Shown here: positions 3,918-21,455 of the stretch, one piece after another
Position numbering within the stretch: position 1 is the first letter of the stretch
How the letters are laid out: the number at the start of each line of letters is the position of its first letter
IMG/VR virus record: IMGVR_UViG_3300027739_000155
Location: 1-30,011 of that record
Length of the DNA: 30,011 nt
DNA from: a virus
Direction: 5' to 3' (one strand)
Program-made: the position numbers and the translations under genes
The notes under the pieces: model-generated
Told to the model about the DNA's origin: nothing
Databases searched by the model: none
What the model saw: only the letters and a program-made list of their open reading frames with translations

Positions 3918-4018
3918 CGAGGCGCCCTGCGGTGGTTCCAGCCTGGCAGCCGCAGGAGTGCTGGCGTTTGGAGTGCGCCGGGCCGGAGTTCGACGCCCCG
4001 CTGCGGCCAAAGCAGTAA
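3914..4018 (+). CDS. Possible 34-residue protein overlapping the recT stop
   Basis: A short frame starts with TTG at 3914, overlapping the recT stop as TTGA, and ends with TAA at 4016-4018. It fills most of the 143-base gap before the next gene. The product has a non-random look, with Trp, Cys and Pro residues (AWQPQECWRLECAGPEF) and a basic end (RPKQ). A GTG at 3932 is an alternative start. The overlap would allow translational coupling. No family is recognised and the length is too short for certainty; it could be non-coding spacer. Confidence 0.35.
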   Translation: MTRRPAVVPAWQPQECWRLECAGPEFDAPLRPKQ

Positions 4019-4060: not shown

Positions 4061-4696
4061 ATGATCGACCTGAAAAAAATCCAGTTCAACACCGACAAGG
4101 GGACCGCCGTAAAGTTCAAATTCGTTGCCCCGCCGCCACTTGACCTTTCGGCAGAAATGCAGCTTTCAACCTTCGACATGAATCCGGGCGACCGCTATCA
4201 TTTCGCACTTGGCAAGGTGCGAGAGGGTATCGAAAAGATCGTTTTCGGACCAGCCCACGCCGCCCGCCGCGCCATGACACTCCGCCAGGATGGGGCCGAG
4301 CTATCCGACGCCATCGTAATTGGACTTGACGCCATCACCTTCGGCAGCGACGACGAAGGATATTTCGCCACATTCTCCATGGCAACCGGCCTGAAGAACT
4401 TTGACGAAGCCGGGACGATGAAGCTCCCGAAAGCCTACTATGACCGGGACGAGCGCAACTTCAACCTTTTCCCCGCCGAAGATCACGAGGACCTTGCCGT
4501 GCTCAAAGCCGAGTCCGAAGCCATGATCGGAAACTATCTCCGCAAGATCGGCAGCGTATACTCGAGAATGATAATTGAAGCCATGGGGAAGGACGCCGCC
4601 GACGCACTCGACCGACTGCGCGACGCCGCCCCGGCAGCACCTTCGAAATCATCCTCCGGCGTCGTCATCCTCAACATGGAGGGGACCGAAGCATGA
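4061..4696 (+). CDS. Unknown protein (211 aa) in the recombination operon
   Basis: I do not recognise this protein. It is soluble, with no signal peptide or membrane segment. Residues 1-115 alternate hydrophobic and polar residues as in a beta-rich fold. Residues 140-185 (EDLAVLKAESEAMIGNYLRKIGSVYSRMIIEAM) look like long helices, and a low-complexity Ala/Pro/Ser linker precedes the end ILNMEGTEA. The stop overlaps the next ATG by four bases (4693-4696), so it is coupled to the metallo-beta-lactamase-fold gene. Position between recT and a putative nuclease suggests a single-strand DNA or recombination accessory role, possibly replacing an SSB, but the acidic C-terminal tip of SSB is missing. 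The gene call is secure; the function is unknown. Confidence 0.8.
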   Translation: MIDLKKIQFNTDKGTAVKFKFVAPPPLDLSAEMQLSTFDMNPGDRYHFALGKVREGIEKIVFGPAHAARRAMTLRQDGAELSDAIVIGLDAITFGSDDEGYFATFSMATGLKNFDEAGTMKLPKAYYDRDERNFNLFPAEDHEDLAVLKAESEAMIGNYLRKIGSVYSRMIIEAMGKDAADALDRLRDAAPAAPSKSSSGVVILNMEGTEA

Positions 4697-5349
4697 AGTT
4701 CAAGCCCTACGCCAGCGGATCGTCCGGCAACCTCTACACTCTGGACGACGGGCACACCTCCATCATCATCGAGTGCGGATTGCCGTACCGAGAGATTGCC
4801 AGGCTTCTGCCGAAGGCACCGACGAGCTACGACGCATGCCTGATTTCGCATGAGCATGGTGATCACTGTAACGCCAAAACGGCCGAGACGCTGTTTAATC
4901 GCGGGATGTCGGTAATGCTTGGTGGATCACTGCAGAATAGTCTCAACATCGGAACGATCCGCGCCCAGAGCTTTGAGGTCAAACACGACGTCCCGAACTG
5001 GGGGTACATGTCCCGAGGATGTACCGGAGAGACCTGTGTGTTCCTGATTGACACTTTCTACTGCCCGGTTGTTCCGGACTTCAGCCCGACGATCGTAGCG
5101 ATTGAGTGCAACTACGCCCGCGACTTGATGACGCCCGGTGACAGCATCAACGACCGCCTGTTTGCGTCGCACATGTCGCTTGAGCAGTGCATCAGCACGC
5201 TGAAGGCATGGGATCTGAGCAAGACGCGGGAAATATGGCTCTTGCACCTGAGCGACGACCGCAGTGATGAGGCGCGGTTTATCGCCGAGGTGCAAGCTGC
5301 GACAGGTGTGCCGACATGGGCGGCGCAGGCTTACGGGAGGGGAAGATGA
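4693..5349 (+). CDS. MBL-fold metallohydrolase (putative nuclease)
   Basis: This 218-residue protein has the metallo-beta-lactamase hallmark HEHGDH at residues 53-58. It is preceded by the opening beta-strands (ASGSSGNLYTL, the start typical of YycJ/VicX-like members). Further metal-ligand candidates are the His and Asp residues in EVKHDVPN and FLIDTFY. The closing region (SHMSLEQ, LLHLSDDRSD) also fits this subgroup. YycJ-like and SNM1-like members are associated with DNA 5' exonuclease activity. Next to recT this protein is a good candidate for the strand-resecting partner, although the activity is not proven by sequence. Both ends overlap the neighbouring genes by four bases, indicating one tightly coupled operon. 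Confidence 0.85.
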   Translation: MKFKPYASGSSGNLYTLDDGHTSIIIECGLPYREIARLLPKAPTSYDACLISHEHGDHCNAKTAETLFNRGMSVMLGGSLQNSLNIGTIRAQSFEVKHDVPNWGYMSRGCTGETCVFLIDTFYCPVVPDFSPTIVAIECNYARDLMTPGDSINDRLFASHMSLEQCISTLKAWDLSKTREIWLLHLSDDRSDEARFIAEVQAATGVPTWAAQAYGRGR

Positions 5350-7901
5350 ACTACACCGATTTTCTCAAAGCTAAAATTCCGCTCGCAACATTCGACGGGT
5401 ATGAATGCCAAGCCGAGGATGTGAACCCGCTGCTTCGTCCGCATCAGATCGCCATTGTTCAGTGGGCGGTCAAGGGTGGCAACCGGGCGCTATTCGAGGC
5501 GTTTGGCCTTGGAAAGACGCCGCAGCAGATTGAAATCGTCCGCCTGACGCAGCGATATGCCGGCGGCAAGGCGTTGATTGTGTGTCCGCTTGGCGTCCGT
5601 CAGGAGTTTCGTCGTGATGGTATGTTGATCGGTGAGCAGTGGGAGACTCGAGCGCAGAACATTGGCCTTGATATTGAGGATATTCGGCGCGAGTTTGGTG
5701 TTGAGTTTCGGTTTATCCGGCGCAGTGATGAGGTTGTCGATGGGCATGACTATTATCTGACCAACTATGAGAGCATTAGGGACGGGAAGCTGGATCCTGC
5801 GTTGTTCACGGTCGTGAGCCTCGATGAAGCGAGCGTTCTTCGCTCTTACGGCAGCAAAACGTTTCAGGAGTTTTTGCCGCTTTTCAGGTCGGTAAAACAT
5901 AAGTTCGTTGCCACGGCAACACCGAGCCCGAACCGGTTCAAGGAGCTGATACATTACGCAGGATTCCTGGGAATCATGGATACCGGGCAGGCTCTGACCC
6001 GCTTCTTCCAGCGTGACAGCACGCAGGCCAACAACCTGACGCTGTACCCGCACAAGGAGCGCGAGTTCTGGTTTTGGCTGAACAGCTGGTCCATCTTCCT
6101 GCAGTCCCCGGCTGACCTTGGCTTTGACGCTACCGGATACGACCTTCCGGATATGGAGGTGATCTATCACGAGGTACCGACGGATCATGCTATGGCCGGA
6201 ACGGAGAAGAATGGACAGGGCTTGCTGTTCAAGAATTCAGCAGCAGGCCTGCAGGCGGCCAGCCGGGAAAAGCGCGACAGCCTTTGCCGGCGCATCGACC
6301 AGATGCAGACGATTCTTCAGGAGGATCCGGACAGCCACTACATCATCTGGCACGACCTCGAAGATGAACGCCATGCGATCACTGCCGCGGTCCCGTCATC
6401 GGTGGCCGTCTACGGCAGCAAAGACCTCGAAAAGAGAGAACAGGACATCATCGACTTTTCTGACGGCCAGTTCCAATATCTGGCGGCAAAGCCGGTCATC
6501 GCCGGTAGTGGGTGCAACTTTCAGCGCCATTGCCACAAGGCGATTTTCTTGGGTGTCGGCTACAAGTTCAACGACTTCATTCAGGCCGTGCACCGGATTC
6601 ACCGGTTCCTGCAAAAGGAGCAAGTCGAGATTCACATCATTCACAGTGAGGCCGAACGCGAAATCCTGCGAGCACTGCAGGAGAAGTGGGCCCAGCACGA
6701 AAAACTTGTTGCCAACATGACTGAAATCATCAAATCGCACGGATTGAATCACCTGAGCATCGGAGACGTGCTCAGCAGAACCATCGGATGTGAGAGGATT
6801 CAGATAGATGGAGAGCGTTTCTCTGTCGCAAATAACGATTGCGTTCTCGAAGCTGAGCGCCAGCCTATGAACCATGTCGATCTGATTGTCACATCGATTC
6901 CCTTCTCGAACCATTATGAGTACACCCCGAGCTACAACGACTTCGGCCACACGGACGGAAATGATCACTTCTGGGATCAGATGGATTACCTGACCCCGGA
7001 GTTATGGCGGATTCTGAAGCCGGGCAGAATCTACGCTTGCCACGTCAAAGACCGGATCCTGTTTGGAAATGTCACTGGTGCGGGAATTCCGACCGTGTCT
7101 CCGTTCCACTGCGAGGCAATCATGCATGGATTAAAGCACGGATTTGACTACATGGGCATGATTACCGTTGTAACCGATGTCGTCCGTGAGAACAACCAAA
7201 CCTACCGCCTTGGCTGGTCTGAGCAGTGCAAAGACGGCACAAAGATGGGGGTAGGTTCTCCGGAGTACGTGCTGTTGTTCCATAAGCCTCAGACGGATAG
7301 GAATCGTGGTTATGCAGATATCCCGGTTCGCAAGGAGAAATCTGAATACACCAGGGCTCGGTGGCAGGTCGATGCACATGCGTTTTGGAAAAGCAGTGGT
7401 AACCGGTTATTGACACCCGAAGACCTTGAAGGTGTTGGGCCCGGAGACATGGCGACACTTTTCACCGAGTACACCCAAAGCCATGTTTATGATTACGATT
7501 ATCACATAAAAATAGGTGAGGCTCTTGAAGTGAAAGGAAAACTCCCGGCAAGTTTTATGTCTATTGCTCCAGGTAGTTGGTCGCCTGAAGTGTGGACTGA
7601 CGTAAACCGGATGATCACTTTGAACTCTGCACAGAGCCAGAAGCGCGCTATGCTCCATGTGTGTCCATTGCAGTTTGATATCGTTGACCGGCTGATCACC
7701 AGATACAGCAACGAGGGAGATCTGGTCTATGATCCATTCTGCGGACTTGGCACTGTTCCATATCGGGCGATCAAGCTTGGGAGGCGCGGCCAGGGAAGCG
7801 AGCTGAACACACAGTATTTCCTCGACAGTGTCCAGTACCTGCAGGCCATGGAACGGGAAATCACTATGCCGAGCCTGTTCGATATGATGGGGGCATTATA
7901 A
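5346..7901 (+). CDS. SF2 helicase fused to N6-A/N4-C DNA methyltransferase
   Basis: This 851-residue two-part protein starts at 5346 because a GGGAGGGG site precedes the ATG, which overlaps the upstream stop. Residues 1-470 are a superfamily 2/SNF2-like ATPase: RPHQ at 31-34, Walker A FGLGKT at 53-58, DEAS box at 160-163, TATPSPNR at 190-197 and motif VI QAVHRIHR at 413-420. Residues 490-851 are a beta-type amino-methyltransferase with motif IV first (TSIPF, 516-520) and the SAM-binding motif I later (DPFCGLGT, 796-803). TSIPF replaces the usual (D/N/S)PP(Y/F), so the first proline is Ile. The protein probably methylates phage DNA while translocating, either for restriction avoidance or for replication marking. 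The helicase-plus-methylase layout recalls P1 DarB, which has a different order and size. Confidence 0.88.
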   Translation: MNYTDFLKAKIPLATFDGYECQAEDVNPLLRPHQIAIVQWAVKGGNRALFEAFGLGKTPQQIEIVRLTQRYAGGKALIVCPLGVRQEFRRDGMLIGEQWETRAQNIGLDIEDIRREFGVEFRFIRRSDEVVDGHDYYLTNYESIRDGKLDPALFTVVSLDEASVLRSYGSKTFQEFLPLFRSVKHKFVATATPSPNRFKELIHYAGFLGIMDTGQALTRFFQRDSTQANNLTLYPHKEREFWFWLNSWSIFLQSPADLGFDATGYDLPDMEVIYHEVPTDHAMAGTEKNGQGLLFKNSAAGLQAASREKRDSLCRRIDQMQTILQEDPDSHYIIWHDLEDERHAITAAVPSSVAVYGSKDLEKREQDIIDFSDGQFQYLAAKPVIAGSGCNFQRHCHKAIFLGVGYKFNDFIQAVHRIHRFLQKEQVEIHIIHSEAEREILRALQEKWAQHEKLVANMTEIIKSHGLNHLSIGDVLSRTIGCERIQIDGERFSVANNDCVLEAERQPMNHVDLIVTSIPFSNHYEYTPSYNDFGHTDGNDHFWDQMDYLTPELWRILKPGRIYACHVKDRILFGNVTGAGIPTVSPFHCEAIMHGLKHGFDYMGMITVVTDVVRENNQTYRLGWSEQCKDGTKMGVGSPEYVLLFHKPQTDRNRGYADIPVRKEKSEYTRARWQVDAHAFWKSSGNRLLTPEDLEGVGPGDMATLFTEYTQSHVYDYDYHIKIGEALEVKGKLPASFMSIAPGSWSPEVWTDVNRMITLNSAQSQKRAMLHVCPLQFDIVDRLITRYSNEGDLVYDPFCGLGTVPYRAIKLGRRGQGSELNTQYFLDSVQYLQAMEREITMPSLFDMMGAL

Positions 7902-10274: not shown

Positions 10275-11785
10275 AGCAGTTGCAGTTGGATGTATTTCCT
10301 GAGATCATCGTGGACCTGTTTGCCGGCGGCGGAGGAGCGTCGGTGGGCATTGAAGCCGCTCTCGGTCGAAGGGTTACGGTAGCAATAAACCACGATCCGG
10401 AAGCTGTAGCTATGCATTCCGCCAATCACCCGGAAACAGAGCATTACTGCCAGAGTGTCTGGGAGGTAGATCCGCGCACCGTGAAGCCTGGTCGCCCGAT
10501 TGGCCTTCTATGGTTGTCGCCTGACTGTAAGCATTTTTCAAAAGCGAAGGGAGGAAAGCCGGTTGAGAAGAAGATTCGCTCTTTGGCATGGGTCGCCTTG
10601 AGATGGGCAGCTATTCGGCAGCCGCGGGTAATAATGCTGGAGAATGTCGAAGAGTTTATCACATGGGGGCCCCTGCATGACGGCAAGCCATGTAAAAAGC
10701 GTAAAGGCCAAGAGTTTAAATCTTTCATAAATGCCTTAAAGGCGCATGGATACTGCATTGAGTGGCGAGAATTAAGGGCTTGCGATTACGGAGCCCCTAC
10801 TATTCGAAAGCGTCTGTTCCTGATCGCCCGGCGCGATGGACAGCCGATTGTCTGGCCTGAACCGACTCACGGCCATGGATTGAAGCCGTATCGCACGGCA
10901 GCGGAGTGCATAGACTGGTCATTACCTTGTCCGTCCATTTTCGAGCGGCAGAGGCCTCTTGCTGAAGCTACTTGCCGCAGGATAGCAAAGGGCATCATGC
11001 GGTACGTGGTCAATGCTGCAGAGCCTTTTATCATCAATACCCGCAACGGGGAGAAGAGCGGGCAAAAGCCAAGAGTCCGAAGCATTCATGATCCGGCATG
11101 GACAATAACTGCTCAAGGGTCTCAAGGCGCGCTTGTAGCTCCCGTTTTTACGGAGTGCGCGAATGCCAGCAGTCCGAGGTGTATGACAGCCGGTGAGCCG
11201 CTGCGGACTATTTGCGCTCAAACGAAAGGAGGGCATCATGCTCTTGTCACGGCGTTTCTTGCAAAGCACTATTCCGGAGTGGTTGGTTCCGAACTGGAAC
11301 AGCCAATCGGGACTGTGACCAGTGTTGACCATCACAGTCTTGTGACAAGCAACCTGATTAAGCTCCGTGGTGATAACGTTGGGCAGCCGACGGATGAGCC
11401 GTTACACACCATCAGCGCCCAGGGAACACACTTTGCAGAAGTACGGGCGTTCTTGGTCGCTTATTATGGGAGCGAGACCGAAGGACAGGGGATAACTACC
11501 CCAATGCGGACCGTGGTTTCCCGCGACCGGTTTGGGCTTGTCACCGTCTCCGGCCAAGAGTACGAGATTGCCGATATCGGTCTTCGGATGCTTGCGCCGA
11601 GGGAACTTTTCAAGGCTCAAGGGTTTCCGGATGACTACATAATCGGCGACCGTCCGGAGCAAGGGTTGATTTTGACGAAAACCGCTCAGGTGCGAATGGT
11701 GGGGAATTCGGTATGTCCGCCACTTTCTCGGGCATTGGCGGCCGCAAATGTGCCTGAAATGGCAATTAAGAGGGCTGTTGCATGA
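10271..11785 (+). CDS. C5 cytosine DNA methyltransferase
   Basis: This 504-residue protein transfers a methyl group from SAM to carbon 5 of cytosine. Motif I is LFAGGGGAS (about 16-24). The catalytic loop is SPDCKHFS (83-90), where Cys86 is the nucleophile in a PDC rather than the classic PCQ context. Motif VI is ENVEEF (124-129), motif VIII RKRLFLIARR (about 178-187), and the closing motifs are RELFKAQGFPDDY and VGNSVCPP. The roughly 230-residue region between motifs VIII and IX holds the target-recognition domain with repeated HTISAQG/RTICAQT-like segments. The GTG start overlaps the small terminase stop, and its own stop overlaps the large terminase ATG. It probably protects phage DNA from restriction. 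Confidence 0.93.
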   Translation: MKQLQLDVFPEIIVDLFAGGGGASVGIEAALGRRVTVAINHDPEAVAMHSANHPETEHYCQSVWEVDPRTVKPGRPIGLLWLSPDCKHFSKAKGGKPVEKKIRSLAWVALRWAAIRQPRVIMLENVEEFITWGPLHDGKPCKKRKGQEFKSFINALKAHGYCIEWRELRACDYGAPTIRKRLFLIARRDGQPIVWPEPTHGHGLKPYRTAAECIDWSLPCPSIFERQRPLAEATCRRIAKGIMRYVVNAAEPFIINTRNGEKSGQKPRVRSIHDPAWTITAQGSQGALVAPVFTECANASSPRCMTAGEPLRTICAQTKGGHHALVTAFLAKHYSGVVGSELEQPIGTVTSVDHHSLVTSNLIKLRGDNVGQPTDEPLHTISAQGTHFAEVRAFLVAYYGSETEGQGITTPMRTVVSRDRFGLVTVSGQEYEIADIGLRMLAPRELFKAQGFPDDYIIGDRPEQGLILTKTAQVRMVGNSVCPPLSRALAAANVPEMAIKRAVA

Positions 11786-13131
11786 CAATTCGCCGTCCCC
11801 TATCGAAGCAGGCGCGGTTCATCTTCAACACCGAGGCTTTCAACCCGGCCTACATGCCGCTGATGTTTGCGGTGGCCGGTGTTGCGGCCGGAAATCCTGA
11901 GGCTGAGCAGTGGCTGAAGCGATTCCTGCTGATGTACGGCGGGCGCGGATCCGGGAAATCGAGGGCTGCAGCTCAAGCGGTCGTCATCCTTATGCTGTCC
12001 GGACGGTACCGGGTGGCCCTGGTGCGTAAGGTGCTGGACTCGATCAGGGATTCGCAGTACCAGGAAATCATCGACGTGATTCAGTATTGGGGTCTCGAGC
12101 GCTTTTTTACGTGGACAAGCAACCCGCTCAAGATCACCTGCACAAAGACCGGCTCGACGTGTATTGCGAAAGGATTCGACAGGGCAGAAAAGATCAAGTC
12201 CTTGGCTTCAATTGATTTCGTGTGGGTCGAGGAGATCACCGAACTCACCCGTAACGACTGGAACCAGCTCCGGTTCACCATTCGCGGCCGGGGATATCGA
12301 GGACGGGCACGCCAGATCCTTGGGACGTTCAATCCGATCAACCCCGAGCACTGGATCAAGGCTGAGTTCTGGGACGATTCGGACAAGGTGCTTCGCCCAG
12401 AGGCCGTAACCGCCCTGCATACGACCTATCTGGACAACAACTTCCTTGATGGGGCATTCATCGCTGACTTGGAGCACCTCAAGCAGACGGATCGCGACCT
12501 GTACCGAATCATCACCTTGGGCCTGTGGACAAAGATCAAGGGGCTCATCTTCCCGGACGTGACCAAGATCGGCGAGTTCCCGGCCCTGCCGACCGGGTAC
12601 TATGGCCTTGACTTCGGTTTCAGCGAGAGTTCGCCGGCGGCACTGGTAAAGGTTGGTGCTGAAGTGGCCGGAAACGAGAAGCGGATATACGCTGATGAGC
12701 GTCTGTATATGCCACACCTGAGCCCGTCTGAGCTACTGGAGCAGATGGGCCTTGTGATCCCTGAGACGGACAAGCACCTACCGATCTACTGCGACGATGC
12801 ACGGCCCGAGACCATCAAGGAGTTGAGGAAGGGCGGGTATAATGCGATCCCGTGGAAGAAGGGTAAGAGCAGTGTTTTCGAGGGCCTTCAGTTGACGAAG
12901 ATGTTCAAACTCCACGTCACAGAGCGGAGTGTGAATTTCCTTCGCGAGCTGGCGCTCTACAAATGGCGCGAGGACAGTCGCGGGAACCAGCTCCCGGAGC
13001 CGGTAAAGGCAAACGACCATTGCCCTGATGCGGTGCGTGGAGTGGTCTATACGGCCCTTGGATATCTCACAACGCCGAGGACAGGGCAAGAGACGCAGAC
13101 AGCAGAATATCAACAATCCGTACCAATGTAA
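11782..13131 (+). CDS. terL: Terminase large subunit (ATPase-nuclease)
   Basis: This 449-residue packaging motor is of the PBSX/XtmB kind. Walker A is GGRGSGKS (53-60). Walker B is FVWVEEITELT with Glu150/Glu151, and GTFNPINPEHW is the coupling segment. The C-terminal RNase H-like nuclease has Asp277 in YGLDFGFSESSPAAL, Asp338/Asp339 in CDDARPETIKEL, and Asp412/Asp416 in ANDHCPDAVRG. All key residues are present. The protein translocates DNA into the prohead through the portal and cuts concatemers. Its portal partner is encoded on the opposite strand at 16575-17966, which is unusual. Confidence 0.95.
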   Translation: MTIRRPLSKQARFIFNTEAFNPAYMPLMFAVAGVAAGNPEAEQWLKRFLLMYGGRGSGKSRAAAQAVVILMLSGRYRVALVRKVLDSIRDSQYQEIIDVIQYWGLERFFTWTSNPLKITCTKTGSTCIAKGFDRAEKIKSLASIDFVWVEEITELTRNDWNQLRFTIRGRGYRGRARQILGTFNPINPEHWIKAEFWDDSDKVLRPEAVTALHTTYLDNNFLDGAFIADLEHLKQTDRDLYRIITLGLWTKIKGLIFPDVTKIGEFPALPTGYYGLDFGFSESSPAALVKVGAEVAGNEKRIYADERLYMPHLSPSELLEQMGLVIPETDKHLPIYCDDARPETIKELRKGGYNAIPWKKGKSSVFEGLQLTKMFKLHVTERSVNFLRELALYKWREDSRGNQLPEPVKANDHCPDAVRGVVYTALGYLTTPRTGQETQTAEYQQSVPM

Positions 13132-13144
13132 CCATTATTACCCC

Positions 13145-13366
13145 ATGACACATCGAGAAATCTACGAGCACAGAAAACTGCTTTTTGCAGCCGGGAAATG
13201 CCCGCATTGCGAGCGCACCGCTAATTTCACGCAGACCGGAACTCGGCAGGTTGATCAGGTGAAACAGAGGACGTTGCGGTGTCCTCATTGCGGGACGGCT
13301 TTCAGAGTAAATGTCAGGGTGGAGGTGTTCTTCAGCAAGATTACTCGTGAGGGGCAGCCGTCATGA
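13145..13366 (+). CDS. Small zinc-ribbon protein (73 aa)
   Basis: The product has two CPHC knuckles, Cys19/Cys22 and Cys46/Cys49, spaced as in a zinc ribbon, with basic residues around them. The ATG at 13145 is used because a longer frame from 13028 would lie inside terL. The stop overlaps the next start as ATGA, linking it to the minor head protein. Small zinc-ribbon proteins next to terminase genes occur in many phages. Possible roles are DNA binding in packaging or transcription control, but the sequence alone does not decide. Confidence 0.75.
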   Translation: MTHREIYEHRKLLFAAGKCPHCERTANFTQTGTRQVDQVKQRTLRCPHCGTAFRVNVRVEVFFSKITREGQPS

Positions 13367-14796
13367 GCGCAATCCAGAGCGAATACGACATCCTGCAGGA
13401 CAAAATCACGGAGCTACTGCAGCTGCACCAGCAGCGGAATGGTGTTCTATCGGCGATCTATCAGCGCGCCATCACCGAGGATGTATTGGCCATGATTGAT
13501 TCCGGACTGATCAACGAGAGCGACATCGAGGGCGCGATAATCGACCTTGAACGGAAGCTGCAGCGGGTGACCGATAACGTGGCGTACCAAGTACTAAACC
13601 GTGCTCAGGACCTGATCAAGGTGCAGCAATACTTCTGGCAGCGGCACGGCTACGCTCTCGATCTGGCAAAGGAGTACGAGCGGTTGCGGGCAATCCAAGC
13701 CAACACGTTTGACGCCTTTGCCGGCATTCCTCCATCGACCAGCCGGCACATCCGCGATATGCTCCGCGATAACGAGATCATGGGAAAGGGGAAAGCAGCC
13801 GTCAACGACGAGATTCGGCGCATAACGGGCGTTACGGCATCAAGAGCCCAACTTATCAGCGGGACGAGCGAGTTTCTCTATATCGGGCAGTTCAACGCCA
13901 ACAAGGCCGCCGATCTCGGGGTGCAGAGGTTCCGGTACAAGCCGGGGTTCGTCATACCGACATCAAGGCCCTTCAGCCGGTGGGCGGTCGATCATGGCGA
14001 CTTCACCAGGGAAGAGATCGACGCCATTGACCGGCACGACTGGAAGTCGGTTCCAGGACTCCCGCTGGACAAGACCGGGAATGGGTGGCAGGGGATGATT
14101 CCGGGGGTCCCGGTGCTGGTCCAGGGCGGCGGGTACAATTCGATCCACCGCTTTGCGATGGTGTTCATGGACGGACCGGCGAAGAAGGTCACTCAGCCGT
14201 TGCCGCTTGAGCGCTGGAACATGCCGAAGGTCACGATAGACCGCGGGGAGGTCCCGGTTCCGGACAATGATGTCGTCGCGAGGATGCGAAAGCAGACCGT
14301 CAGCGATGACGTCAAGGCACAGAGGATCAGGATGAGCGAGGACGCCATCAGACACCGGGATTACGAGACGCTGATCATCTTTGACGCCGACGGCAACGAG
14401 GTGCGCAACATCAGGGGCGAAAAGAGGTCGGTCAACCTGCCGCCTGACGCGGAAAGCCTGCTACCAGGGTCGATAGTGACGCATAACCATCCGGGAGGGA
14501 CATCGTTCTCTCCGCAGGACTTGATGGCTGCCAAGGTGTACGGCGTCAAAGAGATGCGCGTCGCGTCAGCCAGGCACGACTACTCGGCGACGATCACCGA
14601 TGCAGGCATGGCAATGTCGGAGCGTGACTTCAACGGGCTTGCCTACGACACGTCAGCCCGGTACAACGTCGAGTATCATCGCAAGTATGCCGCAGGGGAA
14701 ATGAGCGCCGACGATGTAAATCATCTTCTCTGGCATTCGGTATGGGAGGATTTTCGTAACTTGGGATTGATCAACTACACCAAAACGGAGAGGTGA
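13363..14796 (+). CDS. Minor-head-type protein with C-terminal JAB/JAMM-like domain
   Basis: This 477-residue protein follows terL in the place of a portal or head-morphogenesis gene. Residues 1-130 are helical. Residues 130-260 (RRITGVTASRAQLISGTSEFLYIGQFNANKAADLG, PTSRPFSRWAVDHGDFTREEIDAI) resemble the MuF/SPP1 gp7-like head-morphogenesis region, a weaker call. Residues about 340-430 form a JAB/RadC-like domain: HNHPGG at 374-379 followed by S383 and D386, close to the JAMM zinc-protease motif H-x-H...S-x-x-D. A preceding strand (ETLIIFDADGNEVRNIRGEK) is also typical. It may be an ejected or processing protease carried in the virion. Coupled by ATGA to the zinc-ribbon gene. Confidence 0.72.
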   Translation: MSAIQSEYDILQDKITELLQLHQQRNGVLSAIYQRAITEDVLAMIDSGLINESDIEGAIIDLERKLQRVTDNVAYQVLNRAQDLIKVQQYFWQRHGYALDLAKEYERLRAIQANTFDAFAGIPPSTSRHIRDMLRDNEIMGKGKAAVNDEIRRITGVTASRAQLISGTSEFLYIGQFNANKAADLGVQRFRYKPGFVIPTSRPFSRWAVDHGDFTREEIDAIDRHDWKSVPGLPLDKTGNGWQGMIPGVPVLVQGGGYNSIHRFAMVFMDGPAKKVTQPLPLERWNMPKVTIDRGEVPVPDNDVVARMRKQTVSDDVKAQRIRMSEDAIRHRDYETLIIFDADGNEVRNIRGEKRSVNLPPDAESLLPGSIVTHNHPGGTSFSPQDLMAAKVYGVKEMRVASARHDYSATITDAGMAMSERDFNGLAYDTSARYNVEYHRKYAAGEMSADDVNHLLWHSVWEDFRNLGLINYTKTER

Positions 14797-14800
14797 CACG

Positions 14801-15052
14801 ATGGATATTGATGATACGATTTTCGGTCTTCCGGTAATCAGTCCGGTGTGCTCGGTATGCAAGCACTACAACCCGAGGGAGACGCGGCTAAAGAAATGCA
14901 CGGCATTCCCTGACGGGATACCGAAAGATATCTGGATGGGAAGGAATAGCCACACGGAGCCGTATGAAGGTGACCACGGGATTCAGTTCGAGCCGAGGCG
15001 TGACGCGGTTTCTCACCGGCTTCCTCCACCCCAGTCAAAGCCGCAAGGTTAA
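14801..15052 (+). CDS. Small Cys-containing phage protein (83 aa)
   Basis: This 83-residue protein has Cys17, Cys20 and Cys33 and the segment AFPDGIPKDIWMGRNSHTEPYEGDHGIQFEP. I recognise this arrangement (CxxC...C, FPxGIP, H, GDxGIxF) as a recurrent small protein encoded after head-morphogenesis genes in phages and prophages. Its function is not known; the Cys and His residues could bind a metal. A GGAGAGGTG site precedes the ATG. Its stop overlaps the stop of the convergent gene on the other strand within a shared TTAA, so no terminator fits between them. It is the last rightward gene before the inverted block. Confidence 0.8.
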   Translation: MDIDDTIFGLPVISPVCSVCKHYNPRETRLKKCTAFPDGIPKDIWMGRNSHTEPYEGDHGIQFEPRRDAVSHRLPPPQSKPQG

Positions 15053-15291
15053 TCGCCGAGCAATTTGCGTTTACGTCCAGGGGTGGCCGCTTTTTTGTGC
15101 TCGTTGATCCAGTCAATAGCCTCAGCGGAGTACATGACACCCCCGTTGCTTTGCTTGATGTAGTGCACCCTCTCGATGAGTATCGCTGCCTCTTTTCTGG
15201 CAGGGTTTCCATTGCGGAAGTGGCGCTGACGCTCACGGGTGTACCCTGTGGCGTCGCAGACTTGGGCGATGGATATGGTAAAAATTGGCAT
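15049..15291 (-). CDS. Putative small helix-turn-helix DNA-binding protein
   Basis: This 80-residue, basic protein has a MerR/excisionase-like layout: a helix-turn-helix-type start (ISIAQVCDATGYTRERQRHFRNG), a wing-like middle (HYIKQSNGGVMYSAEAIDWINEHKK) and a basic tail (PGRKRKLLGD). It is the last gene of the leftward block. Its ATG shares one base with the stop of the gene before it. A regulatory role, for example at the operator-like palindromes at 19031-19064, is possible but speculative. The family assignment comes from pattern only. Confidence 0.6.
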   Translation of the reverse strand: MPIFTISIAQVCDATGYTRERQRHFRNGNPARKEAAILIERVHYIKQSNGGVMYSAEAIDWINEHKKAATPGRKRKLLGD

Positions 15292-15674
15292 CAGTTATCT
15301 CCGCCTTTTTGATGAGCGCGCAGTTCCGCTTCTGCGGTGAGCGATCCTTTGGTTATGAGGCGATCAAGCGCTGTTTGCGCTTTGCGGTCGTCTCTCATTA
15401 CTTGCAACTTGAGCTTGAGGACTTCCGTAAAATAGCGGTCGGTCGGAAATGCTCTTGCTTCTTGGGCGGACATAAGCAATCCATGAATTTCGGCATCGTG
15501 CTTTTTGCCGTCTGGCCAGAGATCATAATCTGCAACGTCTTCGTCAAGATCAATATTGTCGAGGTCGTCAAGCCAATTTATTCCGGACAACTCTTTTTTA
15601 AGCGAGTCGATTACTTCTGAAAATTTTCCGGTTTCGGAAAGCTTGATCAGTGCGGTAATCATTTGGTAGGTCAT
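15291..15674 (-). CDS. Unknown acidic-centre protein (127 aa)
   Basis: I do not recognise a family. The protein is soluble. It has an N-terminal helix (MTYQMITALIKLSETGKFSEVIDSLKKE), a strongly acidic middle (residues about 35-52, rich in Asp) and helical C-terminal segments ending KGGDN. There is no signal peptide or membrane segment. It sits in the middle of three small leftward genes and overlaps the following one by a single base (TGATG), so both are probably translated together. Accessory (moron-like) genes of this type often serve host interaction, but nothing shows that here. Confidence 0.65.
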   Translation of the reverse strand: MTYQMITALIKLSETGKFSEVIDSLKKELSGINWLDDLDNIDLDEDVADYDLWPDGKKHDAEIHGLLMSAQEARAFPTDRYFTEVLKLKLQVMRDDRKAQTALDRLITKGSLTAEAELRAHQKGGDN

Positions 15675-15730
15675 TGCTTCAATTTTTGCGCGCCCTGTGT
15701 TGCAGCGCGCTGGTTTTGTTGATTTATTTC

Positions 15731-15970
15731 TTACTTGCTCATTTGGGCGATTGCCTCAGGGTATTTGGCACATATCTGCTTGAGTATGTCGGTTTCACCA
15801 TATCCACGGTGCTCAATCCACCACTCGGCAGATGTCTCAAGGTGCAGGACAGCCTCTACCGCATCGGGGTTTCCAAAACGAGGGCGCAAAAGGCCGATAA
15901 TTTCGGATTTAATGTCAGTCGCCCACTTGATCTGTTTTTCGGTGCCTTCCATTTTTGTTTTCAGTGTCAT
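15731..15970 (-). CDS. Unknown small protein (79 aa), first of a leftward trio
   Basis: The product begins MTLKTKMEGTEKQIKWATDIKSEI and has a Trp-containing middle (SAEWWIEHRGYGETDILKQI). The TEKQIKWA start is a recurrent feature of small phage and plasmid proteins, but I cannot name a function. No Shine-Dalgarno site is visible; the leader is A-rich. The 170-base AT-rich spacer upstream may hold its own promoter, which would allow separate expression from the portal operon. Confidence 0.6.
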   Translation of the reverse strand: MTLKTKMEGTEKQIKWATDIKSEIIGLLRPRFGNPDAVEAVLHLETSAEWWIEHRGYGETDILKQICAKYPEAIAQMSK

Positions 15971-16140
15971 GGCTGTTTTTCGTTTTGTTGTTGATTACTG
16001 CCTTCTGATATAAATGTACGGAATGTTTGGCAAAGCACAAAACAAATAGACAAAAAAAACAGAGGGAATGATATTTTTTTTTGATTGTGCGATGATTTTT
16101 TGTGTCTTCCGCCAGAAAGAAAAAGACAAGATCTCGATTA
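15971..16140 (-). promoter_or_regulatory. AT-rich spacer with possible leftward promoter and long inverted repeat
   Basis: This 170-base gap between leftward genes is much richer in A and T than its surroundings. On the minus strand, TTTGTG and TACATTTATATC (around 16007-16041) could serve as promoter elements for the three small genes. An imperfect inverted repeat is present: GCACAA at 16035-16040 pairs with TTGTGC at 16085-16090, and inside it A8 (16052-16059) faces T9 (16074-16082). It could terminate the portal operon or act as a regulatory structure. None of this is certain. Confidence 0.35.
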
Positions 16141-16578
16141 TTATTTCCCACCCCAGTCGAACGACTGAAACACACGGTCGGCGATCTGGCCGACCGGTTC
16201 TTCTCGGGCACCTCCGAACGAAAACCAGTTGTACCGCCCACGCCACTTTAATGTTTTCGCTGCTGCATCTCCGGTGATCCTGATGGTGTACCGGGTATCG
16301 GTCACGCTCGAGGTCATCGTGTTGATCGTGTTCGGGTGCGAGAACCCGAAGAAATCCACGTGTCCACGAAACCGTCCGGAAGCTCGCTTCCGCTTCTCAT
16401 ACTCCTTCCAACGATACTGAAACGGGCCGCCATTGGCGAAGCGGCCTTCGAGCGTCTCGTCGTAGATGAACTCCTTTGCCTCGTTGCCTACGATCTCAAG
16501 AAACCGCCTGATCTGGCCGCGGTCGATGATCCGGACGAGGTAGTCGCGGACGTTACCCTGATTTCCAACGATGTTCAC
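16141..16578 (-). CDS. Mu gpG-like virion morphogenesis / tail completion protein
   Basis: This 145-residue protein has the layout of phage virion morphogenesis proteins (Mu gpG/P2 gpS group). It has a helical N-terminus (VRDYLVRIIDRGQIRRFLEIVGNEAKEFIYDE), a GGPFQYRWKEYEKRKRASGR segment typical of the family's W...Y...R/K region, and beta strands ending in a Gly-rich tail. It probably acts at the head-tail joint. Its ATG overlaps the portal stop as ATGA on the minus strand. It is the last gene of the four-gene connector operon. Confidence 0.7.
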   Translation of the reverse strand: MNIVGNQGNVRDYLVRIIDRGQIRRFLEIVGNEAKEFIYDETLEGRFANGGPFQYRWKEYEKRKRASGRFRGHVDFFGFSHPNTINTMTSSVTDTRYTIRITGDAAAKTLKWRGRYNWFSFGGAREEPVGQIADRVFQSFDWGGK

Positions 16579-17966
16579 AGTCTGAACGGGTTATTTTTCG
16601 AAAGCCCTGGCAGAATCATGTTTTCCCGATCTGAATTCACCGGCAACCGGTAGAGATTTGCGACCTCGCCTTCGGTAAACTCAGCGCCCATTGACGAGGC
16701 GGATTCGACCAGGCGGATAACCTCGGGGGCTTTGAATTCCTCGGGAAGCTTGGTGCAAAAATGGACAGGGTAGCGCTTTCCTTCTGGGAAATTGAGGTCA
16801 CGGATCGGGATGAGCAGCTGATCGGCGAGGATCTGGTCTCGGATAGCGCACACCGACGAAAGCATCTCGTCATCATAGGCCATGCCGGTTGCTGATGTGG
16901 CCCTTGTGCTGTCCTTCTCGGTGCTCATATCCTGACCTTTCAGTCCTTTCGTGGCCTCGCTGTTGTGCGTGTCGAGGTCATCGCGGAACACTGATGTGGT
17001 GCTGACGGCATCGGCGCCGATATAATCGACCGTAACCGTTGACGGATGCTTGATGCTTCTGAGTTTGCCGTTGGCGTTGTAGGCTCCGTAGATGGTTGCT
17101 GCATCGGCTGCGTTGTTCGGGTCCTGATTGTCGTACGAAACATCAAGTGTCGGCTCGGCAAACCGGTTTCGGTACTTCCTGCCGTCTACCCGAGTGTACA
17201 CTTTATCTACCCAGGTATCAAAAACCCGCTTCTGGCTGCCAATCTCGGTAAATGGCACCGGCTTGATCATGAGCTGATCGGCATCGGCCGGATCGATGGC
17301 AAAAATGAATTGCGTCGGCCTGTCGCTGATGTTCATGGCCTGCGCTCCGTCCTGGATGTAAAGCAGGTTGCCTTCCGCATCTGATTGCAGGTAGATGTTC
17401 GGTAACTGCCTGATCTCAACCGGCACCACCGGCGTGAATCCCGGAATTCCGTTACCGGAATACTCATCACGTATGGATTGAGATGCTTCCCCCCATACGA
17501 TCTCCTGCAGCGTCGGCCAGAATGTCCCCCATGCGGCGCGCTCTCGAACGGCATTGAAGTTTATCGAATGCAGGACCATAGACAAAAACTTTACCTGTGC
17601 TTGTGCATCCGGATCGTCCTTGATCTCATCTGGCAGCTCAATCTCAAACGGATAGGCTACTGTGCGGCGCATGAGGTCTGAAGTAGTGCCTCCGATGTGG
17701 CCGTCACGCAGTACGCCTTTCTGGATGTACCGGTAATAGGTCATCGGAAGCCCGGAATCCGCCTGCTGTTTTGCGTTCCTTATGGCCGCGTCGCTCAACT
17801 CGAGGCCGCTGAAATCCTTCATGTCGCGCTGAATCCCCGCCATGGCGCTGTTGATGGCCAAGCGGTCGATAGGGGCACTTACGGGATGGACCGTCTGCTC
17901 TGTCGGCATTGAGTCAGGTTTTGCGGAGCGATTGCGACGGAAAAGATCGAGTATGCTCATGGTCAA
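16575..17966 (-). CDS. Portal protein, DUF935/Mu gp29-like
   Basis: This 463-residue protein forms the ring at the capsid vertex through which DNA is packaged. The segment SGLPMTYYRYIQKGVLRDGHIGGTTSDLMRRTVAYPFEIELPD (residues about 70-112) is characteristic of DUF935 portals. So are the following WPTLQEIVWG, QFIFAIDPADADQLMIKPVPF and FDTWVDKVYTRVDGRKYRNRFAEP-type segments. Length fits the family (450-520). It lies on the opposite strand to both terL and the capsid gene, although these three must act together. ATGA overlaps at both ends place it in one operon with the connector genes. Confidence 0.82.
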   Translation of the reverse strand: MTMSILDLFRRNRSAKPDSMPTEQTVHPVSAPIDRLAINSAMAGIQRDMKDFSGLELSDAAIRNAKQQADSGLPMTYYRYIQKGVLRDGHIGGTTSDLMRRTVAYPFEIELPDEIKDDPDAQAQVKFLSMVLHSINFNAVRERAAWGTFWPTLQEIVWGEASQSIRDEYSGNGIPGFTPVVPVEIRQLPNIYLQSDAEGNLLYIQDGAQAMNISDRPTQFIFAIDPADADQLMIKPVPFTEIGSQKRVFDTWVDKVYTRVDGRKYRNRFAEPTLDVSYDNQDPNNAADAATIYGAYNANGKLRSIKHPSTVTVDYIGADAVSTTSVFRDDLDTHNSEATKGLKGQDMSTEKDSTRATSATGMAYDDEMLSSVCAIRDQILADQLLIPIRDLNFPEGKRYPVHFCTKLPEEFKAPEVIRLVESASSMGAEFTEGEVANLYRLPVNSDRENMILPGLSKNNPFRL

Positions 17967-18388
17967 GCGTTGATAGTTGCAATAGTGAAGTCTATCCGGA
18001 TTCCAAGGACGCCAATGTTCGGGAACGGGCTTGGTCCGTCTGCCCTGGTCAACTGACCAAGGCCCGACACGGTACGGTCGTTAAGCTTTTCGACGAAATC
18101 ATCAGCATGTTGCAGAGCACGAATGTAATCGTCGTCCGTTCGCGCCTCAGGATAGGTGAGCAGTGTCTGCATGGAGAGTCGATAGACATAGTGCTCGAAA
18201 GGTCCATCTCCCTGCAGGAAGAATCCGCATTTGTTGACCGCTTGATTCGGAGACTTGCGTAAAGCCTCTTCAAGCGCAGGAGCATACATAATCTGTCCGG
18301 CCTGAGGAAAGAACTTTTTGCCGGACGTTCTTTCGAGTGAAAGCAAGAACGTCCGCACCGTCTGATGCGCTGATGCAAGCCCTATCAT
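17963..18388 (-). CDS. Head-tail connector / tail-terminator-like protein
   Basis: This 141-residue protein lies between the gp36-like gene and the portal, overlapping both by four bases. It has helical segments (QTVRTFLLSLERTSGKKFF, DDYIRALQHADDFVEKL) and a beta-rich end (NIGVLGIRIDFTIATINA) like small joining proteins that cap the tail tube (Mu gp37 position). I rely mainly on gene order for the role, since no single motif is decisive. It might instead be a minor tail or neck protein. Confidence 0.6.
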   Translation of the reverse strand: MIGLASAHQTVRTFLLSLERTSGKKFFPQAGQIMYAPALEEALRKSPNQAVNKCGFFLQGDGPFEHYVYRLSMQTLLTYPEARTDDDYIRALQHADDFVEKLNDRTVSGLGQLTRADGPSPFPNIGVLGIRIDFTIATINA

Positions 18389-18969
18389 ATCATCACCCCA
18401 TTATCATTCGTTCGGATGGTTTCTGCAAAAGCAGAACCGTAATCGGAGCCTGACGCGCTGACTGTCGGCGCATCAGCCCCTGTCGCGATCGCTTCGGCGG
18501 CGCTCATATCAAGATCATCCTGTGATTTTGCAACCCGATCCAGCTCTTCCTTGCATTCGTCGTAGTGCATCATGAGGAAAGTCCGCTGCCCCTGCTCGAG
18601 CTTGCTTCCCGGACGGTTGAGCAGCTCCTGTGCAGCAAAGGCGACAGCCCAGCGCTTCAGCGTCTCAGTCGTGTCGTCCTCGTGGTCAGGATCAAATGAG
18701 AATGGGATCTTGTGAGATGCGCCATATCGCGGCCGCAGCGCCCGGTTGATTTTTGTGCAGGCGCTTTTTATCAGGTCTTCGAGCAGCTCCTGCTTTTCAG
18801 GATCCGAGAGATCGGCAAAAAGCTGGGCGGTTGCCCCATCTGGGTTGTCTGGGATTTCGATGCCATTGACGTCTTGTCCGGGCTCTTCCTGTTGAGTGAG
18901 TGTCTGCAGGCTTGAGTAAGAGAAGTGCCTCTGCAGGTCGCGAACTGTGGCGTAGACGGTATATGCCAT
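18385..18969 (-). CDS. DUF1320 / Mu gp36-like head-tail connector
   Basis: This 194-residue protein is the first gene of the leftward operon. A GGAG site lies just before its ATG. The start (MAYTVYATVRDLQRHF) and the middle (LLEDLIKSACTKINRALRPRYG, ETLKRWAVAFAAQELL) match the DUF1320/gp36 pattern of adaptor proteins that sit under the portal. The C-terminal 50 residues are Ala/Ser/Asp-rich and probably disordered. It is transcribed away from acb2 across a 159-base divergent control region that contains two operator-like palindromes. Confidence 0.78.
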   Translation of the reverse strand: MAYTVYATVRDLQRHFSYSSLQTLTQQEEPGQDVNGIEIPDNPDGATAQLFADLSDPEKQELLEDLIKSACTKINRALRPRYGASHKIPFSFDPDHEDDTTETLKRWAVAFAAQELLNRPGSKLEQGQRTFLMMHYDECKEELDRVAKSQDDLDMSAAEAIATGADAPTVSASGSDYGSAFAETIRTNDNGVMI

Positions 18970-19030
18970 ATGGTGATCTCCGGTTTTCCTGAATGATACC
19001 CTGATAGACTTGGCCGGTTGTCGTGCATAA

Positions 19031-19064
19031 GTGCCAATTTCGGCACATCTGCCAAAATTGGCAG
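19031..19064. promoter_or_regulatory. Two tandem operator-like palindromes in the divergent region
   Basis: GTGCCAATTTCGGCAC (19031-19046) and CTGCCAAAATTGGCAG (19049-19064) are inverted repeats with 5-bp and 7-bp arms. Both fit one consensus, TGCCAA-N4-GGCA, and their centres are 18 bases apart, on similar faces of the helix. They lie between divergent genes starting at 18969 and 19129. TTGGCA inside the second site could also act as a -35 element in either direction, so a bound repressor would block promoters. The binding protein is not identified; the small helix-turn-helix protein at 15049-15291 or a repressor outside the window are candidates. Confidence 0.6.
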
Positions 19065-19128
19065 CAAATGACGTGTAAAAATGTTTGTGCGTGGGTAACT
19101 ATCCGGAAACACACGCGCACAGAAAAAC

Positions 19129-19353
19129 ATGGACAACCAGCACAGAAAGATTTCCGGGTACAGAGAACTATCTCAAGATGAGATAGACATGATGAACCGC
19201 GTCAAGTTGGCAGGAAAAGCACTTGCCGACCTGATTCGCGAAATCGAAAAAAGCGGCGCTGCAGATGGCAGGTGGCTTTCGATTGGCAAAACGGATCTGC
19301 AGAAAGGTCTTATGGCTGTAACTCGCTCCATAGCAACGCCGGAGTTTTTCTGA
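19129..19353 (+). CDS. acb2: Acb2-type cyclic-nucleotide sponge (anti-CBASS)
   Basis: This 74-residue protein fits the Acb2 family (Acb2/Tad1 hairpin domain). It has the pattern HRKISGYRELSQDEIDMMNRVK at the N-terminus, a long helical hairpin, and the ending RWLSIGKTDLQKGLMAVTRSIATPEFF. Acb2 forms hexamers that bind cyclic di- and trinucleotides such as 3',3'-cGAMP and thereby prevent activation of CBASS effectors. Tyr11 and Lys26 stand at the positions I remember as ligand contacts in the Pseudomonas phage PaMx33 protein. It is the first rightward gene after the divergent region. Its stop shares one base with the ATG of the capsid protease gene (TGATG), so it would be co-expressed with head genes. 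The leader is A-rich without a Shine-Dalgarno site. Confidence 0.8.
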   Translation: MDNQHRKISGYRELSQDEIDMMNRVKLAGKALADLIREIEKSGAADGRWLSIGKTDLQKGLMAVTRSIATPEFF

Positions 19354-20447
19354 TGAACACAGTCTTCGTTTCAGCCACCGGAAAATACCTGCAGGGGGAT
19401 CTTACCCCTCAACTGTTCCGCGATCTCGTCGAGAGCTACGACCCGGTAGTCTACGAAGCTGGCGCATTTGTGGCGCACTCGACAAAGTGGGCTGAGGCGG
19501 GCATCACTGAGCCGCCGAGGCTTGCGGCCGTGAAAAGCCTGTCAGACAGCATGATCGATAGCTCCGGGCGGGTGTACCTTTCTGCCGGAATTGAAGAGAC
19601 GGCGGACTACTCCGAGGCGCAGCAGTATTTTCCGCACAAGTCTATCGAGTTCTGGGACGGAAATGACCCCCGGAACCCGCTGAACCAGCCTCACATCCCT
19701 GCCGAAAAGCAGGGTAAACCGTATCTCCGTGGCTTCGCCCTGCTTGGGGATTCCCCGGCCGCAAAGTTGCCGGCCGCCATAACAAGATTTTTCGGGCCGC
19801 TGACCGACGAGAAACGTCAGGAGCTGTCACGGTATGCAGATGCGGCAGCCGGCCTGTATTGCTACGATGACAGCTTACGAACCAAAACCATCAACACTAT
19901 GAAGAAGATCGCTCAGGCCTGTGGCCTTGCCGATGATGCATCCGAAGATCAGATCATTGTCTCGGTCAAACAGTACCAGGACGAAAACGCGGCGCTCAAG
20001 ACCAAGGTCGAGACGCTCGAAAAATCGGCCGGTGACGGCGTCAAGGAGTACAGCGACAAGCTGACCGTTGCCGAGACGGCCATCTTATCGCTTCGCACTG
20101 CCCTGCACACCGAGAAAGTTTCCGGATTTGTCCGCGACGCTCAGGCAAAGAACCTTACCATCGGAGCCGAAAAGCTCGAACGGCTGAAGACCTATGCCGA
20201 CCGCGATTACCGCGACGGTGACGAGACGTACACTTTAGCTACCGCCTACCTGGCTGACATCCCGGCCGTACAGCAGATGCACGTCGGAAAAGTTGCTGGC
20301 GCAGCCGACCCGAACGCCGAAGATCTGAAGAAAGTCAAATGCTTCGCAGATCTGGCTTCTGACGCAGACCTCAGATCGCGATACGCAGAGGCGTTCCCGG
20401 AACAGTATGACAAGCTGGTACAGAACCCCGGCCTGAAGCTGGCCTGA
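19353..20447 (+). CDS. Prohead protease with C-terminal scaffold (Mu gpI-like)
   Basis: This 364-residue protein is the capsid maturation protease and scaffold. The ATG at 19353 overlaps the acb2 stop. The N-terminal half has the Mu I-type features: DLVESYDPVVYEAGAFVAHSTKWAEAGITEPPRLAAVKSL, a GRVYLSAGIEET strand, FPHKSIEFW and LRGFALLGDSPAA(K)LP. The Ser in LGDSPA and the His in PHKS are candidate catalytic residues. From about residue 190 the chain becomes helical and charged (QDENAALKTKVETLEKSAGD), as in a scaffold domain. The protein should build the prohead with the next gene's product and then degrade the scaffold. Confidence 0.83.
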   Translation: MNTVFVSATGKYLQGDLTPQLFRDLVESYDPVVYEAGAFVAHSTKWAEAGITEPPRLAAVKSLSDSMIDSSGRVYLSAGIEETADYSEAQQYFPHKSIEFWDGNDPRNPLNQPHIPAEKQGKPYLRGFALLGDSPAAKLPAAITRFFGPLTDEKRQELSRYADAAAGLYCYDDSLRTKTINTMKKIAQACGLADDASEDQIIVSVKQYQDENAALKTKVETLEKSAGDGVKEYSDKLTVAETAILSLRTALHTEKVSGFVRDAQAKNLTIGAEKLERLKTYADRDYRDGDETYTLATAYLADIPAVQQMHVGKVAGAADPNAEDLKKVKCFADLASDADLRSRYAEAFPEQYDKLVQNPGLKLA

Positions 20448-20483: not shown

Positions 20484-21455
20484 ATGGCAACTCAGGTAAC
20501 CGCAACAGGCGCGATACTCTTCAGCTCTCTGGTGCAGACTGCGCTTTTGGAGCAGCCCGAACTGGACATGTTCAGCTCGGAGACTGACCAGAAGGTCGAA
20601 CGTGTGAACGGCAACTGGCCGTCCAGCGTGAAGTTTCTTCGTCTGGGAACTCCGACCGTTGGCGACCTGACCGGGACTTATCCTGTGCTCGGGGCAAATG
20701 CAGGCGACACTCTCGCCCGTACCGAGATCGAGATGAAGCTCAAGAAGGGCGGAATCTCGGGCGCAAACTCCATCCGGGTGCAGAACGTGGAAGAGAAACT
20801 GCACGGCATGACCATCAAGAGCGCACTGGTGCAGACCGCGAAGGATGCGGTTATGAACTATGTGCTGAAGGACATGTTTACCCGCATGATCCGCCAGAAA
20901 GACATCGGAAATGTCGATTACGGCGGCGAGGCTCTTGCATCCGGGCAGCACACGGCATGGGCTACCGCCGGCACCGTCGCGAACGCCGACTTCCTGACGG
21001 CTCGCGCGTTCCTGAACAAGGCGCAGGTTCCGACCGGAAACCGGCACATGGCTTTCTTCACCGACGAATATTCTGATTTCATGGCCGACGCGACGCTAAA
21101 ACCCTGGTTCCAGTACAACAACTTGGCATTTGCCAACGGTGACATGCCGAAAAAAGTGCACGGGTTCCAGATGGTAGAAACCACAGCAATCCCGCTCATC
21201 AAGCCTTCGACCGGCGTTCCTTCGGCAGCGGCAGCGACGTTTACCGGCGAGACATCTGCCAACGACACCCGGAACTCAATGCTGGCATGGGCCAAGGAAA
21301 TGGTCGGCCTGCTGATCGCCGGAATCGAGACGGTTATCAACCCGATCCCCGGCGGTGGCGGCGACTATGCTCTTGAGCTGTTTATCTACTACTATGGTGG
21401 CGTCCTCCGTAAGGATGGAGTGTACCACCTGTACGACAGCACCGCCAACAGCTGA
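20484..21455 (+). CDS. Major capsid protein
   Basis: This 323-residue protein directly follows the protease/scaffold gene and has a good AAGGAG site. It begins MATQVTATGAILFSSLVQTALLEQPELDMFSS. Later segments are HK97-fold-like: the E-loop region rich in Gly and Lys, a helical spine (LHGMTIKSALVQTAKDAVMNYVLKDMFTRM), a domain with RHMAFFTDEYSDFMADATLKPWFQY, and a closing strand (YALELFIYYYGGVLRKDGVYHLYD). No cleavable N-terminal delta domain is obvious, which agrees with a separate scaffold. Position and length make the assignment strong, although I cannot name the exact capsid subfamily. Confidence 0.78.
   Translation: MATQVTATGAILFSSLVQTALLEQPELDMFSSETDQKVERVNGNWPSSVKFLRLGTPTVGDLTGTYPVLGANAGDTLARTEIEMKLKKGGISGANSIRVQNVEEKLHGMTIKSALVQTAKDAVMNYVLKDMFTRMIRQKDIGNVDYGGEALASGQHTAWATAGTVANADFLTARAFLNKAQVPTGNRHMAFFTDEYSDFMADATLKPWFQYNNLAFANGDMPKKVHGFQMVETTAIPLIKPSTGVPSAAAATFTGETSANDTRNSMLAWAKEMVGLLIAGIETVINPIPGGGGDYALELFIYYYGGVLRKDGVYHLYDSTANS

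Follow-up and report, generated by a model that had tools for sequence, protein, structure and literature searches.

An Acb2-type cyclic-oligonucleotide sponge predicted at the head of the capsid operon of a divergent phage

The open reading frame at 19129-19353 of the window (the whole stretch of viral DNA analysed here, 30,011 nucleotides) encodes a protein of 74 residues that, judged by its sequence and modelled fold, is a genuine Acb2-type protein. The family, the fold, the conserved residues and the order of the surrounding genes together make it highly probable that this is an Acb2 sponge encoded first in a late head operon, its gene probably being coupled to that of a capsid protease. 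The protein is a new but ordinary member of its family, found at an uncommon address in a divergent phage contig. The genes on either side are as follows.

19129-19353, forward strand: acb2, predicted cyclic-oligonucleotide sponge, 74 aa (PF24729, PDB 8h2j/8ixz, structure model, Y11/K26)
19353-20447, forward strand: capsid scaffold/protease-like gene, 364 aa (phrog_73, E 7.1e-6; PF05929, E 6e-5)
20484-21455, forward strand: major head protein (phrog_267, E 4.7e-8; phrog_283, E 2.1e-7)
18385-18969, reverse strand: Mu gp36-like gene, first gene of the leftward operon (PF07030, E 1.7e-7)
16575-17966, reverse strand: Mu-type portal protein (PF06074, E 7.2e-25)

The acb2 reading frame lies on the forward strand, opens with ATG and closes with TGA. 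Residues 10-69 of its product match the profile PF24729 (Acb2_Tad1_hairpin) with an E-value of 2e-18 and 66.8 bits, against a Pfam cut-off of 27 bits. Two PHROGs families, phrog_717 and phrog_29522, match as well, neither with an assigned function. The best PDB matches are two sequences named p26, those of 8h2j (E 5.9e-22) and 8ixz (E 2.9e-21); two further entries reach only E 0.8-0.9. The title of 8h2j describes Acb2 with 3',3'-cGAMP. At E 0.01 no NCBIfam profile matched Acb2, the protease-like protein, the head protein or the portal. Tyr11 and Lys26, which the original prediction had singled out and which we take to be ligand contacts in PaMx33 Acb2, are both present, and they are among the 15 invariant columns of an alignment of 39 sequences (the 74-residue protein and 38 relatives hand-picked from 92 loci), being retained in all 39. 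In T4 Acb2, the mutation Y8A is reported to disrupt cyclic dinucleotide binding (PMC12657218). The three-residue offset between the structural alignment ranges suggests that Y8 of the T4 protein is equivalent to Y11 here.

The predicted structure agrees with the sequence matches. The AlphaFold2 single-chain model, built from 35 sequences, has a mean pLDDT of 87.2 and consists of helices at residues 16-42 and 47-69, arranged in an antiparallel two-helix hairpin like that of solved Acb2. The first six Foldseek ranks are all Acb2 chains (8h2j with E 1.5e-5 and a TM-score of 0.77 by query), followed by T4 Vs.4 with E 0.03-0.09. In VIA-align the model superposes on 8h2j with Z 8.4 and an rmsd of 2.6 over 72 residues, and on 7uq2 (T4 Vs.4) with Z 8.1 and 24% identity, the next, unrelated row reaching Z 7.1. 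A Z of about 8 is weak for helical proteins and proves little alone, so the case for Acb2 rests on sequence and fold jointly. The profile, the 8h2j sequence and the two-helix model thus bear out the Acb2 pattern first read from the letters, and the helical hairpin is seen in the predicted fold.

The closest known relatives are of the PaMx33 type (8h2j, 8h2x), which have in common with the 74-residue protein the MDNQH start, Y11, K26 and the hairpin fold, at 47.3% tblastn identity. PaMx33 Acb2 has 93 residues and carries an extension between the helices that is absent from the shorter protein. T4 Acb2, Vs.4 (7uq2), is alike in fold and distant in sequence. The hairpin of Tad1 belongs to the same Pfam family (PF24729). 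Tad1 is described as having an N-terminal beta-sheet ahead of its two helices (PMC12043709), a domain absent from the 74-residue protein, whose model contains two helices only. Relatives of acb2 were found by tblastn in 232 of 50,697 phage records, and additional ones at nine genome loci and in two sets of at least 80 viral loci, with some contigs in common; forms of 74 residues are frequent among the relatives listed. At the DNA level the region 18385-22440 matches 20 records only, each over 2% of the stretch and at the start of acb2.

The acb2 gene runs directly into the gene that follows. Its stop codon TGA (19351-19353) and the next ATG (19353-19355) have one base in common in the string TGATG, and a GGAG motif lies inside the end of acb2, eight bases upstream of that ATG. 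This overlap and motif have the usual look of translational coupling, and acb2 is probably coupled in this way to the protease-like gene. The identity of the second gene is less firm than the overlap. Its 364-residue product matches phrog_73 at the E-value given above and PF05929 with 23.2 bits, under the cut-off of 33.6 (both queries carried one extra N-terminal residue). BLASTP against P2 gpO gave a non-significant E-value of 0.51. A forced pairwise alignment places a His and a Ser near those of P2 by eye, to which we attach little weight, and a single-sequence structure model was unusable (pLDDT 38). The protein weakly resembles phage scaffold/protease proteins by sequence, and its protease label is somewhat uncertain. 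The original prediction that acb2 shares a base with the ATG of a capsid protease therefore holds for the overlap and is weakly supported for the protease. The placement of acb2 at the head of a capsid operon stands, with the scaffold/protease-like gene and then the major head protein downstream; the latter has no Pfam match.

The head genes of the window are divergent from those on record. With the limits applied, tblastn matched neither portal, protease-like protein nor head protein to any of the 50,697 phage records, and a search of viral contigs for relatives of the protease, the head protein and TerL confirmed none. TerL has distant relatives in 1531 phage records, the best at 37.8% identity. 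The head module at 11782-18969 is mixed, with the terminase reading rightward (11782-13131) and the portal and gp36-like genes leftward (16575-18969), and Mu-like and P2-like parts occur together in it. A helicase/methylase fusion at 5316-7901 (forward strand) shares, along 99% of its length, 62.9% identity with an Arthrobacter phage; set against the portal, protease and head protein without tblastn matches in phages, this indicates strong mosaicism. The occurrence of acb2 in this contig adds to the range of Acb2 a phage in which portal, protease and head protein all lack such a match.

The leftward and rightward operons diverge from a common intergenic region, which contains a pair of palindromes.

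18970-19128, no strand assigned: divergent intergenic region with leader hairpins, 159 bp
19032-19063, no strand assigned: palindrome pair, possible shared regulator site (19032-19045 and 19050-19063)

The window contains three copies of the form TGCC-N6-GGCA where 0.61 would be expected, and only one of 100 shuffles reached that number. Two of the three are adjacent, at 19032-19045 and 19050-19063, with starts 18 bases apart. A longer form of the palindrome, allowing up to two mismatches, is less striking (four found against 1.51 expected; 7 of 100 shuffles gave at least four). The centre of the pair, at 19047.5, lies 1.5 bp from the midpoint of the gap at 19049. The paired operators of the original prediction are thus present as a palindrome pair, and their role as operators is putative. 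Words around the palindromes gave 0 matches in a test of mirror symmetry. The activator site of P2 has the form TGT-N12-ACA; this form was not found in 18901-19200. The RNA leader of acb2 folds better than shuffled sequences (z -3.4, with 3 of 200 shuffles equally good), in part because tandem palindromes form a long hairpin on one strand in any case. Two leader hairpins precede the gene, at 19032-19063 and 19084-19123. Together with the lack of a visible Shine-Dalgarno sequence in the 22 bases before acb2, the hairpins make post-transcriptional control of the gene possible.

A similar plan is found in the late region of P2, where divergent head and packaging operons start from pP and pO with one annotated activator site between them for both promoters. 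The leftward operon of P2 carries terminase and portal, and the rightward one the O scaffold gene followed by the N head protein. The window differs from P2 in having acb2 ahead of the O-like gene and in palindromes that are not the P2 activator site. By analogy with pP/pO, the gap may well be a late divergent promoter pair, and late co-expression of acb2 with the head genes appears the likeliest reading. Against it stand the promoter scan, which lists no consensus sigma-70 site in the gap, and the lack of a visible Shine-Dalgarno sequence before acb2. Transcription of the rightward operon would start in the divergent region with its centred palindrome pair, and acb2 would be the promoter-proximal gene, followed by the scaffold/protease and the major head protein. 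The sponge would be made alongside the head proteins and slightly ahead of them. Like its solved relatives it would form a hexamer, and it would tightly bind cyclic di- and trinucleotides, keeping the alarm molecules of CBASS from their effectors. The phage would then disarm its host while new particles are being built, which is where the benefit of acb2 would lie.

An early-needed blocker in a late operon had been presented as a puzzle in the original prediction. The position of the gene is as described, and the puzzle is weakened by the precedent of JBD67 and PM105 (Beetrevirus). In these phages acb2 lies within the run of head genes, downstream of the major head protein with a single small gene in between, rather than before a protease. 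It encodes a protein of 108 residues there, and its DNA is about 77% identical along a stretch of 78 bases. Deletion of acb2 in JBD67 is reported to be partly rescued by expression of Acb2 (PMC13083879, citing Huiting et al.), and this rescue, with the location of the gene among head genes, indicates that an acb2 gene in a head operon can work. Acb2 is also described as active in induction and not in lysogenic maintenance (PMC12043709), and it is itself sensed by Panoptes (PMC12409349, PMC12657218). The prohead protease has been reported as a CBASS activator (PMC12409349); on the other side, the wild-type capsid gene alone is described as causing no CBASS-dependent toxicity (PMC10419184). If proteins of the head module trigger CBASS, a sponge made together with them would arrive soon enough, without any need for early expression or for delivery in the particle.

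The original prediction had proposed either early expression from the divergent promoter or late delivery to protect particle assembly; no sign of early expression was found, and nothing calls for delivery in the particle. In the early-expression account, a promoter of its own within the divergent region would drive transcription of acb2 ahead of that of the head genes, and the overlap of acb2 with the protease-like gene would be incidental. The well-folded leader could hold such a separate control. The acb2 gene of PaMx33 is the last in a series that includes MazG, primase and DNA polymerase genes, a series that heads towards structural genes encoded on the opposite strand. We nevertheless think early expression unlikely, given the TGATG overlap, the structural genes flanking acb2 on both sides, the centring of the palindromes between two operons and a consensus sigma-70 promoter scan that found none between 18970 and 19128. 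The sponge might also serve mainly against a cyclic-nucleotide signal other than that of CBASS, for example in type III CRISPR. Acb2 is reported to bind cyclic trinucleotides such as cA3, which are common to type III CRISPR and CBASS (PMC12043709), and the 74-residue protein has less sequence between its helices than PaMx33 Acb2 (93 residues). No SMODS cyclase was detected in any of the nine genomes with related acb2 genes, compared with 3 of 14 control genomes, which also speaks for another target; none of the nine is known as a host of this phage, however, and since SMODS covers part of the cyclases only, little follows from this count. With the conservation of residues across the family also speaking against it, a target mainly outside CBASS seems rather improbable. 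That the protein is a head accessory or scaffold protein with only the hairpin fold in common is scarcely credible. Helical hairpins are common and the gene opens the run of head genes, but the curated family matches at E 2e-18, an Acb2 of the PDB at E 6e-22, and relatives also adjoin genes of DNA metabolism.

Late co-expression leaves the question of whether the address beside a head protease is meaningful in itself. As the prohead protease is a reported activator of CBASS, a sponge made just before the trigger is attractive, and acb2 might be coupled to the protease because the protease or the head protein triggers CBASS, so that antidote and trigger would always be produced as a pair, the antidote first. 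We regard this trigger-coupled order as possible but doubtful. Similar arrangements exist in other phages. At one locus (L031, 4125-5512) acb2 directly precedes a head protease of phrog_3778 with a four-base overlap, and in another group (L014/L099; positions 6001-7619 of L099) it lies 58-59 bases upstream of a head protease of phrog_53; both lineages are separate from that of the window, and the protease families differ. A preference of acb2 for the position before a head protease was rejected on counts. The pair was seen at 2 of 98 dereplicated loci (L031 and L099), or 3 of 99 with the window, in iterated searches seeded with four proteases, from which divergent proteases may escape. By the binomial distribution, at least three such pairs would arise by chance with a probability rising from 0.13 with 80 genes per genome to 0.45 with 40. 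Phage Statler is a reported counter-example, with its protease at gp24 and Acb2 at gp57 (PMC13348362). In the literature, none of the titles and abstracts among the matches listed concerned acb2 beside a protease, which is no proof of absence.

The neighbours of acb2 are diverse. The gene adjoins terminase at two loci (L013, L069) and portal at two others (L014, L056), more weakly at a third (L049), and lies near a major head protein at L092. Elsewhere it is found beside DNA-metabolism genes: an exonuclease (L024), a single-strand binding protein (L040) and an RNA ligase (L074). An initial tally took in 116 of the 118 ORFs next to acb2 at 62 loci (two very long ORFs were left out), several of these loci being near relatives; the families that it showed most often included those of portal, head, terminase and protease proteins. 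A general association with head genes was rejected by a stricter tally, which showed no enrichment: head, packaging and connector matches numbered 8 near acb2 and 19 far from it. The near set comprised the 120 nearest ORFs of at least 110 aa within 300 bases on either strand at the 98 dereplicated loci, and the far set ORFs more than 3.5 kb away at the same loci (120 of 148 drawn were used, the last 28 being left out); the comparison is rough, covering the best 25 of 165 and 127 families, and one protein can match several. With protease pairs at chance level, 3 of 99, and without enrichment of head genes, acb2 behaves as an accessory gene that roves from place to place, and the trigger-coupled order is offered as a hypothesis that the counts do not raise above chance. 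The pair of acb2 and protease nonetheless lends itself well to asking whether a gene for counter-defence is linked to the gene that triggers the defence. If such coupling were true, the order of phage genes would give clues to what is sensed by bacterial immunity.

The window contains a second gene that may bear on cyclic nucleotides. The product of 4693-5349 (forward strand) is a protein of metallo-beta-lactamase fold with weak NCBIfam matches far under their cut-offs. One of these, at E 0.005, is to a cyclic-nucleotide-degrading phosphodiesterase and is probably generic; if the protein were a phosphodiesterase, it would be a second signal-removing enzyme. A tRNA-Ser (gga) gene is located at 3936-4008 on the forward strand.
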